A stretch of DNA of 28,309 nucleotides from IMG/VR virus record IMGVR_UViG_3300046804_006052, positions 1 to 28,309 of that record. One strand, 5' to 3'. The position numbers were made by a program, and so were the translations under genes. This DNA comes from a virus. The notes beneath the pieces were generated by a model. It worked only from the letters and a program-made list of their open reading frames with translations. It was not told the origin of the DNA and made no database searches. Shown piece by piece: positions 5,116-10,210 of this stretch (position 1 is its first letter; every line of letters begins with the position of its first letter).

Positions 5116-5553
5116 ATGAGTTATAATGGAAAATTTCGGCCACGACATCCTTCCAAATACAAAGGCGATAGTGGTAATATTATTTATAGGAGCCTTTGGG
5201 AACTCAGGCTTATGTCATATTTAGACACTCACCCTGACGTTATGCAGTGGGCCAGCGAGGAGTTTTGCATTCCTTACCGGTCTCCGATAGACGGCAGGGT
5301 GCATCGGTATTTTCCAGATTTCTGGATAAAGCAGCGGGATAAGCACGGAAATATCGACATCAAAGTGATTGAGGTCAAGCCACTTGCGCAAACTAAACCT
5401 CCCGTACCGCAAACTAGAAAAACAAAAAGATACATTAATGAGGTCGTTACGTGGGGAATAAACGAAGCAAAATGGAATGCTGCTAAGAAGTTTTGCGACA
5501 CAAAAGGTTGGAAATTTGTGGTTATGACAGAAAAAGAGCTAGGAATAAAATGA
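5116..5553 (+). CDS. 4: Head completion protein gp4 (gp50/gp4)
   Basis: A 145-residue protein closely matching T4-family gp4: 'FRPRHPSKYKGDSGNIIYRS', 'LWELRLMSYLD', 'YRSPIDGRVHRYFPDFWIK', 'IEVKPLAQTKPP' and a C-terminal 'FVVMTEKELGI'. The D-x(n)-E-x-K arrangement (the Asp of 'FPDF', then 'IEVK') is the PD-(D/E)XK-like nuclease core of this family, which trims packaged DNA ends before neck attachment. No Shine-Dalgarno is visible before the ATG, and a CATAAATA octamer ends only 5 bases upstream. Initiation may therefore be leaderless or weak. The stop overlaps the next gene as ATGA. Confidence 0.92.
   Translation: MSYNGKFRPRHPSKYKGDSGNIIYRSLWELRLMSYLDTHPDVMQWASEEFCIPYRSPIDGRVHRYFPDFWIKQRDKHGNIDIKVIEVKPLAQTKPPVPQTRKTKRYINEVVTWGINEAKWNAAKKFCDTKGWKFVVMTEKELGIK
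5181..5188 (-). promoter_or_regulatory. T4-type late promoter for the baseplate operon
   Basis: The plus strand reads TATTTATA, so the minus strand carries a perfect T4 late octamer TATAAATA about 76 bases upstream of the gene 48 start and inside the coding region of divergent gene 4. Late promoters of this class need gp55/gp33-modified polymerase. A gp33 gene is present in this window. Confidence 0.65.
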
Positions 5554-6137
5554 CATACGGCGTATTTCAAACAATTCTCAATGCCGGCATCAAGGCTGGA
5601 ACAGAAGAAATGTCGACCAATCAAGCGCGGGACTGGTTTCGGCAGAAAGCAGCAACAGTCAAGGTAACGCCATCTTCGGTCATATCAACAGCCACCAACA
5701 AGACCACGTCAATTGAGAATATAATTGGCAGCATGGTATTGTTTTCTTACGACCCGAAGACGAAAGCTACATTGCCTTTTTATGATAGGTACCCGTTGAT
5801 TTTTATCACCGGCGTTCTGCCTGACGGATTTACAGGAATCAATTTTCACTATTTGCCACTCACGTATAGAGCAATTTTAATGGATGGTCTTTATCAAATT
5901 GCCTTAGATGAACCGAACCCAACCAAACCAACATACGAGCTGTTGAGATCTTACGCCAGGTTGAGGTACTACAAACCATGCTTCAAACGGTATCTAAATA
6001 CGTACGTGCGCTCCAACTTCGCCATTATCGATAAAAGCGACTGGGACAAAGCGTTATTCTTACCGCTGGATAGATTCAAAAAAGCAGGGCGCGAGCTTGT
6101 CCACATCGATTCAATACAAAAAATAGTTTATGGCTAA
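5550..6137 (+). CDS. 2: Probable DNA end protector protein, gp2-like
   Basis: A 195-residue protein, starting at the ATG that overlaps the gene 4 stop. An in-frame ATG further upstream lies inside gene 4 and is less likely. Segments such as 'ARDWFRQKAATVKV', 'FSYDPKTKATLPFYDRYPL', 'GINFHYLPLTYRAILMDGLY' and 'YKPCFKRYLNTYVRSNF' match a conserved protein that T4-like marine phages carry next to gene 4 and that is usually annotated as gp2. gp2 binds the packaged DNA ends and protects them from host RecBCD. In T4, genes 2 and 4 are also neighbours. Name assigned from family memory and synteny, without visible catalytic motifs. Confidence 0.6.
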   Translation: MTYGVFQTILNAGIKAGTEEMSTNQARDWFRQKAATVKVTPSSVISTATNKTTSIENIIGSMVLFSYDPKTKATLPFYDRYPLIFITGVLPDGFTGINFHYLPLTYRAILMDGLYQIALDEPNPTKPTYELLRSYARLRYYKPCFKRYLNTYVRSNFAIIDKSDWDKALFLPLDRFKKAGRELVHIDSIQKIVYG

Positions 6138-7053
6138 CTTTTCAGACAATTTAAACAAAACAATAGCACAAGGGTACAATACCTATGGCCAATTGCGCGC
6201 TATAGGGGATGCCCTCGGAATATTGTCAGGCGGTAAGCCGCGTGGCCGCTCATTGACTAGTATCGTTGGTGCAGAATTTAGACAAAACGGGGTCGCGAGA
6301 CCTACTCTAGCTTTCACAGAAGTGGCGTTGCCTCCTTGCATGACACGAGATTCATTCGAATTTGGTGATAAACTGAAACCTGGTACGGCTGGAAACTTTA
6401 TTGCAATGGCGGGATCGGATAGGGTTCGTTTTCTTTCATACCGCAACGATTCGTTTTCTACACCAGGTATGTCGATAGCGACTACCGATATCAGAAGATA
6501 CGGTGTCGGTCCAACCGAAAAAAAACCATACGGCGTAATATACCAAGACGTGACTTTCAACTACATTCTTGATACGCAAAACAGCCAACACAAATTCTTT
6601 TATCGCTGGATGGACAGCATTATAGATCACGATCGTAAAACATCGGACGTTAGTAGACCAACATATGAAGTTGGATATAAAAAAGACTTCCAAACTACAA
6701 TCAATATCCACGCGTTTGACGACCGCTTCGATCAAGGACAAGCTGCTACCGATCTAAAAATGCAAACTGTCACACTAGAACAAGCGTACCCCATTTTCAT
6801 AGGTGACATACAGTATAACTGGGGCGGTATCGACACCCTTATTAGACTTCCAGTCACATTTACATTCAGTAGATGGGAGACTATAGTCGGTAAAGTGGAG
6901 GATGTAAGAACGACCGCAAATCCAGGCCTTGGATTATTCGGTCAGCTATTGAAAGCTGGTACTGCTCTTCAAGCGCTTTCAACTCTCCGCAATCCGCGGA
7001 ATATATCAGATGTCCTCAATGTTGTCAATACAGGGTCTATCATCACTAAATAA
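6130..7053 (+). CDS. 54: Tail-tube-fold protein, probably baseplate tail tube initiator gp54
   Basis: A 307-residue protein whose start overlaps the previous stop by 8 bases. The region from ~125 to 255 resembles the gp19/gp54 tube fold: 'YQDVTFNYILDTQNSQHKFF', 'WMDSIIDHDRK', 'TINIHAFDDR', 'TLEQAYPIFIGDIQYNWGG' and 'LIRLPVTFTFSRWE'. In T4, gp54 sits on gp48 and seeds tube and sheath growth. The length (320 in T4) and a distinct N-terminal domain favour gp54 over the tube protein gp19 (163). In T4, 54 lies next to 48. Here the two are separated by the strand switch and genes 4 and 2. Confidence 0.6.
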   Translation: MANFSDNLNKTIAQGYNTYGQLRAIGDALGILSGGKPRGRSLTSIVGAEFRQNGVARPTLAFTEVALPPCMTRDSFEFGDKLKPGTAGNFIAMAGSDRVRFLSYRNDSFSTPGMSIATTDIRRYGVGPTEKKPYGVIYQDVTFNYILDTQNSQHKFFYRWMDSIIDHDRKTSDVSRPTYEVGYKKDFQTTINIHAFDDRFDQGQAATDLKMQTVTLEQAYPIFIGDIQYNWGGIDTLIRLPVTFTFSRWETIVGKVEDVRTTANPGLGLFGQLLKAGTALQALSTLRNPRNISDVLNVVNTGSIITK

Positions 7054-7074: not shown

Positions 7075-7785
7075 ATGAATCTTCCAAAAATTAGCCACCC
7101 AACCTTTTCCGTCACGATCCCCTCTACGCAAGAAAAGATCAGAATGCGTCCCTTTCTTGTTAAGGAGGAAAAGATATTGCTGATGGCACAAACATCCGAA
7201 AACTCAAAAGACATCGTCCTAGCAATTCAACAAGTAGTCAACAACTGCCTCGTGGATGACGTCAAGATCGAAGATCTAACAACATTCGACATCGAATACT
7301 TGTTCCTTAAATTGAGAGGAAAGTCAGTCAGCAATACGATTGAATTGAAATACACCGACCCTGTGGATAATGAGCGGTATGATATTATTATCGATGTTGA
7401 CGATGTTGAGATTAAATTCGACGACGAGCACACAAACAAAATACAAATAACCGATAAGACTGGTATCATCTTGAAATATCCAAAAGCGGATGTGACAGAA
7501 AAAATGTCAACCGATCTTGGATCTGAAGTTGAGCTAATGTTCGAACTAATGAAGTATTGTATTGACAAATACTACGATGAAAATAACGTGTATGATATGG
7601 CTAGCAATACTTCTGAGGACATTGCAGAGTTTATTGACGGATTAGATATTGAAACATTCAATCAAATTCAAAAGTTTATGAGCACAATGCCACGTCTATA
7701 CCACGAAGTGTCTTACATGAGAAAAGACGGCTCTGAAGGCAAGCTCATATTACAGACACTGAATGATTTTTTTACATTGCGCTGA
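7075..7785 (+). CDS. 26: Baseplate hub / tape measure chaperone gp26 (zero-frame product)
   Basis: A 236-residue product. Start chosen at the ATG at 7075, which has GGAGT 5 bases upstream. An in-frame TTG at 7054 lacks a site. It begins 'MNLPKISHPTFSVTIPSTQ' and contains 'FLVKEEKILLMAQ' and 'VNNCLVDDVKIEDLTTFDIE', as in the gp26-like hub proteins of T4 relatives that act as assembly chaperones near the tape measure gene. It ends with 'LNDFFTLR'. The last codons run over seven T residues (7767-7773). The -1 frame opens exactly there and encodes a conserved-looking extension, so a longer frameshifted form is likely. The shape parallels the G/GT chaperones of other long-tailed phages. Confidence 0.82.
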   Translation: MNLPKISHPTFSVTIPSTQEKIRMRPFLVKEEKILLMAQTSENSKDIVLAIQQVVNNCLVDDVKIEDLTTFDIEYLFLKLRGKSVSNTIELKYTDPVDNERYDIIIDVDDVEIKFDDEHTNKIQITDKTGIILKYPKADVTEKMSTDLGSEVELMFELMKYCIDKYYDENNVYDMASNTSEDIAEFIDGLDIETFNQIQKFMSTMPRLYHEVSYMRKDGSEGKLILQTLNDFFTLR

Positions 7786-7955
7786 GCCATAACAATATTT
7801 CAAATTATTACTATTTGAATTTTAATTTGGCTCAGCACCATAAATATTCGATTGCAGAGATAGAAAATTTAATGCCATTTGAGCGTGACATATACGTTGA
7901 TATTCTAAAAGATTTCTTAGAAAAACAAAAAGAAGGCGCTAGCAGACAAACATGA
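7767..7955 (+). CDS. -1 frameshift extension of gp26 (gp51-like C-terminal segment)
   Basis: There is no good independent start for this frame. It has a TGA at 7764-7766 and then stays open to a TGA at 7953-7955, which overlaps the tape measure ATG as ATGA. The junction is T TTT TTT (7767-7773), a classical simultaneous-slippage heptamer in the correct zero-frame register. Slippage gives a fusion of about 293 residues whose added 60 residues include 'HHKYSIAEIENLMPFERDIY' and end 'LEKQKEGASRQT'. This charged segment resembles the small hub-assembly proteins of T4-like phages. An ATG at 7872 inside the segment could alternatively yield a 27-residue peptide. Confidence 0.7.
   Translation, partial: FFYIALSHNNISNYYYLNFNLAQHHKYSIAEIENLMPFERDIYVDILKDFLEKQKEGASRQT
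7839..7846 (+). promoter_or_regulatory. Possible late promoter upstream of the tape measure gene
   Basis: CATAAATA, one base from the T4 late octamer, about 105 bases before the tape measure ATG and inside the frameshift extension. Supported only by the motif. Confidence 0.3.
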
Positions 7956-10210
7956 ACCCAATAACAGCTGTAGTAAAAGGCACACAAAACACAGTCGATC
8001 AAGCACGGAAAAACGTTGCTCAAGCGGCTAGATCGGCCATGCCTTCTCCGTCAGAGGCTGTATATAATCTTGGAATGGGAATTGGTCCTCTGTTGCGCAA
8101 CATTGCTTCTGAAATGAAAAAGGAGCAAGATAAGGACAAGAAAGATAAAAAGGATACAACTAATCCAGCAAATCCGAAGAGTGGATTAGTGGGTAAAAAG
8201 GAGTTTAGCGCGCTAACAACTCAAATTGGCTCTATGATTACCGTATTGAAAGATATACGCGAAATTGGTCGTATGCAGCTCCGAGCTGATCAGCAGCGAT
8301 TATTTGAAGCTCGTAGGCAACAATATCTTGGTAAAGAGGCTGAACAAGAAAGTGGGTTGCTAGAAAAACCAAGCGCTGCTGGCAGCGGTGGTAAGGGCGG
8401 TACCGGGTCTGGTCTTCTTGGAGCATTAGGTTCAATAAGCGATATGGTTCCTGGATTACTTAAACTCGTGGCCGCAGGATTCGCAGGTAAGTGGGTTTGG
8501 GATAACGTGTTTGATGAAAAAACACGTAAGATGATTAAAGATCGACTCACATCGTTGGTTGGTGATTTGGGGGAGAAGCTTGCCGACAGTATGTGGACGG
8601 CATATAAGAACGCGTTCGAATCTGCTCCCATAACAACAGCTCTTACAACAGCCGCGACTGCCTATCTTGCTGCCAGAATAACTGGCTTAGCGGCTGGCAT
8701 GGGACTCGTGTTCAAGGGTGGAAAGTGGGTTGGTGATCAGATGGTCGATAAACCGCCGCCTTCAAAAGTTAACCCAAAAGGATCAACTGCGGTTGGTCTT
8801 GAAAGTGGTGCCGCTGCGGCAATGACAGCCGAAGAACAAATTGCCCAACGTCTAGCTGCTCAGACAGCACAAGCGGCTGGCGTACGCCAATCGACTGTCG
8901 ATACAAAAGGAATGAGCAAGGCCGAGAGAATAAAATATGAAAGAGCTGCTCGAGCAGAAAGAGCAGCCATACGTCAAGAGATTGAAGCTTTAGAGAAAGC
9001 TAAAATAAGCGCTGGTCCACCATTTAAACCAGGAGGTGGTACGAGTTGGGGTACAAAGTTTGCTCGAGGGCTCGGCGTCCTTGGTGGGGGTCTCAGTTTG
9101 TATGGCGGATATGAAAATTGGCTGGATGATAAGAAATGGTCAGCCAGTCTCTATGGACTTTCCGGAACTTTAGGTCTTAGTGCTGTTGGAGCTGGTATGA
9201 CTGGCGTCGGTGCACCAGCTGCTCCATGGTTGGCTGCGGGGTCGGCCGTTACTGGAGTTGCAGGTCTCGGAGTCGATTGGCTCGAGACGTGGATGCAGAA
9301 CCGCGACAATCAAAAGAGGCAAGAAGAGATTGATAAGCGCCTGGGAGAGCTCAAAAAAGCAGAAGTAGCTGCGTCGATGAAATCCAACGAAGGCAGATCG
9401 AGCGATTCTGGAAGATTCGACACCAAAGATTACGAAAAGTATAGAGAAGGTATTGGATACAGAGAAAATGGTGGCAAGTATAGCGGTAGCAACACGTTGG
9501 GGTATCTCGGCAAGTATCAATTTGGCGTTGCTGCTTTAGAAGATCTTGGCTATATCAAAAAAGGTTCTGCTAAAAAATTAGGTGGTAATAAAAACCAGGA
9601 TATTATTTTCAAAGATCCTAAAAATTGGACCGATGGTTGGAGCAAAGAGAAGTTCTTGAACGATACAAAAGCTCAGGACGATGCAATGCGGAGATTCACC
9701 TCAAATAACTTAGCTTGGCTTCGTAAAAATGGCTATCTAAAATCTGAATCAACCACGCAGCAGATATCAGGCTTGTTAGCAGCAATGCACATTGGAGGTC
9801 CTGGTGGCGTAATTAAAATGATGAAAGAGAATATCGATCGTCAAGATGCGTACGGCACAAAGGTGAGTGATTACATTAAGTATGGCGAGCAAATATTTGC
9901 TCAGAATGCTGAAGACAACAAAGGATTCCGAGATGCGTGGAAGACTGCTATAAACAAGATGACCCCATCATCAACGTTGTCTGCATCGAGCGTCGAAGGC
10001 CCAGATCAAAAGATGGCAAATGAATTGGCAGAAATGTCAAAGACAATTGCCGACTATCTAATGAAAGCTACTAGTGGTGTAATGTATAACAGTGTAGATC
10101 AATCATCTAAAGTCAATGTAATACAAGAAGGATCAAGTGGTGGCACACCAGTCACTGACATTAATCCTGCTAACATCAAAGAAGCTGTACAATCTGCAGT
10201 AGGAAAATAA
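7952..10210 (+). CDS. 29: Tail tape measure protein with C-terminal lytic (lysozyme/transglycosylase-like) domain
   Basis: A 752-residue protein directly behind the gp26 chaperone, the gp29 position. The first ~130 residues are polar and helical ('KKEQDKDKKDKKD' near 55). Hydrophobic glycine/alanine-rich stretches occur around 160-180, 225-255 and 365-445, typical of tape measures that enter the host membrane. From ~485 to 650 lies a wall-hydrolase domain: 'GIGYRENGGKYSG' with Glu505 in the catalytic position, then 'GYLGKYQFG' and 'SGLLAAMHIGGPGG'. This resembles goose-type lysozyme/lytic transglycosylase folds. gp5 here has no lysozyme, so this domain probably opens peptidoglycan during injection. 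The tail end (~690-752) is disordered. Confidence 0.78.
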   Translation: MNPITAVVKGTQNTVDQARKNVAQAARSAMPSPSEAVYNLGMGIGPLLRNIASEMKKEQDKDKKDKKDTTNPANPKSGLVGKKEFSALTTQIGSMITVLKDIREIGRMQLRADQQRLFEARRQQYLGKEAEQESGLLEKPSAAGSGGKGGTGSGLLGALGSISDMVPGLLKLVAAGFAGKWVWDNVFDEKTRKMIKDRLTSLVGDLGEKLADSMWTAYKNAFESAPITTALTTAATAYLAARITGLAAGMGLVFKGGKWVGDQMVDKPPPSKVNPKGSTAVGLESGAAAAMTAEEQIAQRLAAQTAQAAGVRQSTVDTKGMSKAERIKYERAARAERAAIRQEIEALEKAKISAGPPFKPGGGTSWGTKFARGLGVLGGGLSLYGGYENWLDDKKWSASLYGLSGTLGLSAVGAGMTGVGAPAAPWLAAGSAVTGVAGLGVDWLETWMQNRDNQKRQEEIDKRLGELKKAEVAASMKSNEGRSSDSGRFDTKDYEKYREGIGYRENGGKYSGSNTLGYLGKYQFGVAALEDLGYIKKGSAKKLGGNKNQDIIFKDPKNWTDGWSKEKFLNDTKAQDDAMRRFTSNNLAWLRKNGYLKSESTTQQISGLLAAMHIGGPGGVIKMMKENIDRQDAYGTKVSDYIKYGEQIFAQNAEDNKGFRDAWKTAINKMTPSSTLSASSVEGPDQKMANELAEMSKTIADYLMKATSGVMYNSVDQSSKVNVIQEGSSGGTPVTDINPANIKEAVQSAVGK

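Follow-up and report, generated by a model that had tools for sequence, protein, structure and literature searches.

The window analysed here, a viral record of 28.3 kb which may be a fragment, carries a gp26-like gene whose end is followed, in the −1 frame, by an open stretch resembling T4 gp51. The question is whether this stretch is a gene of its own or the C-terminal part of a longer gp26-like product made by ribosomal frameshifting. Judged by its sequence, the locus very probably encodes a λ G/GT-type tail assembly chaperone with a programmed −1 frameshift, giving a short and a long form. This reading, put forward in the initial annotation, is supported by a fixed heptamer, a conserved −1 peptide, the scarcity of independent starts and a downstream stem. 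The features concerned are:

6130–7053 (+): tail tube-type protein, directly upstream of the chaperone gene (PF23849, phrog_45)
7075–7785 (+): short form, gp26-like tail assembly chaperone (TAC-N), 236 aa, stop TGA at 7783–7785 (PF12322, phrog_150, predicted fold)
7764–7766 (+): TGA closing the −1 frame, adjoining the slip site on its 5′ side (sequence)
7767–7773 (+): slippery heptamer T_TTT_TTT (in register in 91/91 relatives; codon fixation)
7767–7955 (+): −1 extension, putative gp51-like C-terminal part of the long form, 62 codons, stop TGA at 7953–7955 (phrog_634; codon-position changes)
7781–7789 (+): 5′ arm of the downstream stem, GCTGAGCCA, with the zero-frame stop inside the arm (fold, pair counts, codon shuffle)
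7828–7836 (+): 3′ arm of the downstream stem, TGGCTCAGC (fold, pair counts, codon shuffle)
7799–7819 (+): inner hairpin within the stem loop, arms 7799–7805 and 7813–7819, less conserved (fold)
7952–10210 (+): next gene, tape measure candidate, 752 aa, its ATG overlapping the extension stop (position, phiM12 counterpart, lysozyme-like match)

The chaperone gene thus sits between the tail tube gene and the gene starting at 7952. The product of the latter is a candidate tape measure protein, as suggested by its position, by the phiM12 gene at the corresponding place, which is annotated as similar to tape measure proteins, and by a lysozyme-like profile match in its C-terminal part. Its residues 487–646 match positions 336–488 of phrog_27932 (“baseplate hub subunit and tail lysozyme”), and a gp5-like ORF (980–1855, −) matches positions 522–676 of the same profile; the tail lysozyme domain may in this phage be carried on the tape measure protein rather than on gp5. 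A gp4-like head closure protein (5116–5550, +) matches the N-terminal domain of TnsA-like endonucleases [PF08722, 1.8e-21].

At its 3′ end the zero frame of the chaperone gene reads CTG AAT GAT TTT TTT ACA TTG CGC TGA, with GAT at 7765–7767 and TTT TTT at 7768–7773, and the seven Ts at 7767–7773 lie in X_XXY_YYZ register. After a TGA at 7764–7766, the −1 frame is open from 7767 to 7952 (62 codons) and ends in a TGA at 7953–7955 which overlaps the ATG at 7952–7954 as ATGA. The initial annotation had described this same layout, with the zero-frame stop soon after seven in-register Ts, the −1 stop right before them, the 62 open codons and the ATGA overlap, and every element proved exact when the sequence was read again. 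Runs of seven Ts are by themselves unremarkable, there being nine on the two strands of the window versus 15.4 expected; it is the register, position and conservation of this run that go beyond chance.

A comparison of homologues, which had been suggested as a check on the slip site, covered 91 relatives, isolates included (80 viral-contig relatives from one scan and 11 database phages). All 91, as well as the window, keep T_TTT_TT(T/C/G) in register. The zero-frame stop follows 10, 13 or 16 nt past the heptamer start (87 relatives tabulated), and the −1 frame is open in all 91, for some 50–65 codons beyond the stop except in contigs L008, L017 and L041, which end within the extension. In a set of 65 non-redundant sequences including the window (median identity 45%), the heptamer's codons take the first three places among 62 conserved codon columns for fixation beyond codon usage, with counts of GAT 55/55, TTT 65/65 and TTT/TTC 56/8. 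The same loci contain 465 other ORFs of 120 codons or more, and not one combines a slip site with an open −1 frame; an X_XXY_YYZ sequence of any kind occurs near the stop in 21 of them, and never with a −1 frame that stays open over a further 45 codons.

Over its whole length the short form matches PF12322 [3.5e-51; 174 bits, cut-off 24.5]; it also matches phrog_150, gp26 “baseplate hub” [8.5e-61]. VIA-align comparison of its AlphaFold2 model (pLDDT 90) with solved structures returned 3fgx (Z 8.2), the HK97 tail assembly chaperone 2ob9 (Z 7.5; 84 residues, rmsd 4.4) and 5ir0 (5.5), the next row scoring 2.9; the matches to 2ob9 and 3fgx are moderate and confined to the N-terminal domain (~85–94 residues). 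The Foldseek match of the short-form model was insignificant (E about 1), and gp26-like baseplate hub proteins predominated among its named matches in a viral structure library. In the structure model of the gp51-like form, confidence is low over the extension (pLDDT block means 51–63), and the structural matches of this model include no tail assembly chaperone. Searches of the PDB found no sequence relative of either the short form or the extension.

The extension had been likened to the hub-assembly peptides of T4-like phages, a resemblance supported by its match over residues 2–61 of 62 to phrog_634, gp51 “baseplate hub assembly catalyst” [5.6e-24]. A further match, to phrog_150 at positions 231–277, takes up where that of the short form stops (position 234). 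Beginning at the slip site, the consensus of the −1 peptide is FFYxxLSHNxLxNYYxxxFSLxQHHKYSIxEIENLIPFERD. Third-position changes dominate among its codons, the value for the first twelve codons being 0.52 versus 0.36 and 0.27 at first and second positions. Gp51-type extensions lie unannotated in the −1 frame of Aeromonas phages Ah1, AS-yj and avDM6 and of Vibrio phage VH7D (loci L087, L099, L102 and L103).

The initial annotation had proposed looking for a downstream stimulatory structure and described none itself; a conserved stem was found. It comprises nine base pairs (7781–7789/7828–7836) and begins 7 nt 3′ of the heptamer, with an inner hairpin in its loop. The fold of the window's sequence has an energy of −21.7 kcal/mol (z −5.6), no shuffle being equally stable. 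As a stimulator we counted a stable structure 5–9 nt after the heptamer that is conserved beyond coding constraint; here the spacer is 7 nt and the conservation exceeds what coding imposes. In 63 sequences the region from +12 to +72 has a mean z of −3.24 against dinucleotide shuffles, versus −0.30 and +0.16 for control regions. Because both arms encode conserved residues (LSH and LAQ), codons were also shuffled without altering the encoded protein. For the 50 loci with a stop 13 or 16 nt beyond the start of the slip site, the mean z is still −3.38 (window −7.15), and 7.70 of the 9 stem pairs are formed against 5.19 expected. In counts made on the named structure, 87% of pair cells are standard versus 20–36% in slid controls, and compensatory cells number 16 versus 6.2 when shuffled.

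This stem is missing from the 13 loci with a stop at 10 nt, which often form local hairpins of their own (mean z −2.30). The stem is broken in part of the relatives, and the inner-loop region folds differently among them. RNAalifold gave no consensus pairs for 49 sequences, so that the stem rests on per-sequence folding, the named-structure counts and the codon shuffles, and is well supported as conserved beyond protein constraint within the window's clade rather than universally. That it is a hitherto undescribed frameshift stimulator, common to a large clade of T4-superfamily tail chaperones, is a tentative proposal, somewhat more apt to fail than to hold; the stem-loop itself may be new to the literature. 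It is not a terminator, the T-tract being absent and a terminator scan finding none, nor a known Rfam element, since no match comes near a gathering score (the rows for mir-3473 and Teg23 fall well short of the threshold).

In cyanophages and Straboviridae (loci L083, L085, L086, L087, L088, L099, L101 and L103), purine runs resembling Shine-Dalgarno (SD) sequences (GGAGGG, AGAGGC, AAGGGG) lie some 10 nt 5′ of the slip site; the window has none there. A strong sequence of this type precedes the slip in 12 of the 13 loci with a stop 10 nt after the slip start versus 3 of the 50 others. As an upstream stimulator of the dnaX type these runs were set aside, being mostly accounted for by conserved Glu-Gly/Arg-Gly codons (mean z −1.0); a dnaX-like role is possible, and we note it as a lead only.

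Three other origins of the −1 extension were weighed against frameshifting. It could be a separate small gene, gp51, with its own start, translated by re-initiation after the gp26 stop, and it is so annotated in several cyanophages, KVP40, phiM12 and RL2RES, where an ATG is present. We surveyed −1 codons 3–15 of 63 complete non-redundant extensions. An early ATG was found in 12, some overlapping the stop as TAATG or TGATG, against 51 without one; 42 of the 63, the window among them, have no ATG, GTG or TTG there. Anti-SD pairing before the early ATGs is weak, S-ShM2 excepted (−3.8 kcal/mol), and the ribosome-binding sites of the candidate starts are mostly weak too. The earliest candidate start of the window, a TTG at 7815, falls within the conserved motif. 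The peptide, moreover, is already conserved 5′ of any start, fixation of the heptamer holds at the codon level, and a strong stem spans the stop region. An independently started gene is therefore rejected for most relatives by the start-codon survey, and as a general account it seems very improbable. The initial annotation had held that homologues encoding the extension as a separate gene would tell against a frameshift; these exist as annotations, but the phages concerned retain the slip site and mostly have poor ribosome-binding sites, so the objection stands in name and fails in substance.

Slippage of the polymerase on the T run, leaving some mRNAs frame-shifted, is favored by the homopolymer of six to seven Ts, which is nevertheless short for transcriptional slippage. 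The heptamer variants found (T6C, once T6G) are only those that tandem tRNA re-pairing tolerates, and a stem after a 7-nt spacer has the geometry of a ribosomal stimulator, so this origin has as slight a chance as re-initiation. Least credible of all, indeed hardly conceivable, is an assembly or sequencing indel that split a single gene; while a homopolymer in a metagenomic contig invites that suspicion, it is refuted by the 91 other records, all of which show this arrangement, isolates such as S-PM2 and KVP40 among them. Programmed frameshifting by the ribosome accounts for the locus far better than any of these.

How the locus relates to T4 follows from the two T4 proteins, gp26 and gp51, which both belong to PF12322, as does the window's chaperone, and whose genes lie on opposite strands. 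T4 gp51 covers phrog_150 to position 280 of 282, and T4 gp26 ends at 235. In profile comparisons the short form aligns with residues 12–202 of gp51-type proteins [3.9e-12], and the extension, from the slip position on, with their C-terminal residues 200–245 [7e-7]. On this alignment gp51 is the in-frame counterpart of the predicted fused product, with the junction at the slip position. T4 thus has the same two forms, gp26 being the short and gp51 the fused long one, but it differs in that the long form has a gene to itself, encoded on the other strand. The slip site is absent from T4-type gp26 genes (T4 reads GAG TTC TTT GAG), and their −1 frame enters a different downstream gene, gene 25 in T4. 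The initial annotation noted that the T4 functions are described as separate genes; the two proteins are, however, homologs, gp51 being the in-frame long form. Phylogenetically, gp26 and gp51 fall into one group each. As the rooting of this tree is uncertain, which of the two states, two-gene or frameshift, gave rise to the other can only be inferred. The 28-kb record, possibly only part of a genome, contains a single PF12322 match.

The likeness to λ G/GT is one of arrangement: a locus between the tail tube and tape measure genes, an in-register heptamer near the 3′ end, and a short −1 extension which gives two forms from one gene. The heptamers differ, that of λ being G_GGA_AAG and that of the window T_TTT_TTT, with T_TTT_TTC in relatives. 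Lambda tail assembly chaperones use a programmed −1 frameshift (Xu, Hendrix and Duda 2004, reviewed in PMC5009743), and this G-T frameshift is described as widely conserved “except T4” (PMC5009743). Passages of two further papers, both citing Vladimirov, Gautam and Davidson 2022, report that some T4-like phages have a short chaperone gene together with a long, fused one (PRFect, PMC10885494) and that poly-T slippery sites occur in the TAC-N genes of T4-like phages (PMC12846349). The chaperones of Vandenendeviridae and Andersonviridae, as presented in the relevant passages of PMC12846349, share a poly-T −1 site located upstream of the tape measure gene and an extension routinely annotated as a separate gene; they differ in having a GTTTTT motif, and those passages describe no downstream structure. 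Both the frameshifted chaperone and the T4 two-gene version are therefore already published, and, given the λ-type and T4-like poly-T cases, the gene in the window belongs to a known kind.

We propose that most ribosomes would stop at the TGA at 7783–7785 and release the 236-aa TAC-N, while a minority would slip back one base at U_UUU_UUU (7767–7773), aided by the stem-loop beginning 7 nt downstream. Having bypassed the stop, the latter would complete a long form (TAC-NC) of a predicted 293 aa, short form plus gp51-type C-terminal extension. The sequence itself shows the slip site, the open and conserved −1 frame, the conserved stem and the homology between the fusion and T4 gp51; the occurrence of frameshifting and its rate are inferred. 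By analogy with λ gpG/gpGT, the two forms would act as a chaperone pair on the tape measure protein, which would be coated by many short and few long forms, the extension presumably recruiting tail tube subunits.

The conserved chaperone frameshift is usually said to have an exception in T4. The frameshift signal is nonetheless present across the wider T4 superfamily, in cyanophages, KVP40-like, Aeromonas and rhizobial phages and many uncultured ones, and T4 gp51 corresponds to the predicted frameshift product. In several records “gp51” has probably been misannotated as a separate gene, or missed, and “baseplate hub subunit gp26” would probably be better named tail assembly chaperone. If the stimulator reading is true, it and the two-gene state of T4 would together make this family a natural experiment: a duplicated gene would have taken the place of programmed frameshifting, and the slip site would have decayed afterwards.
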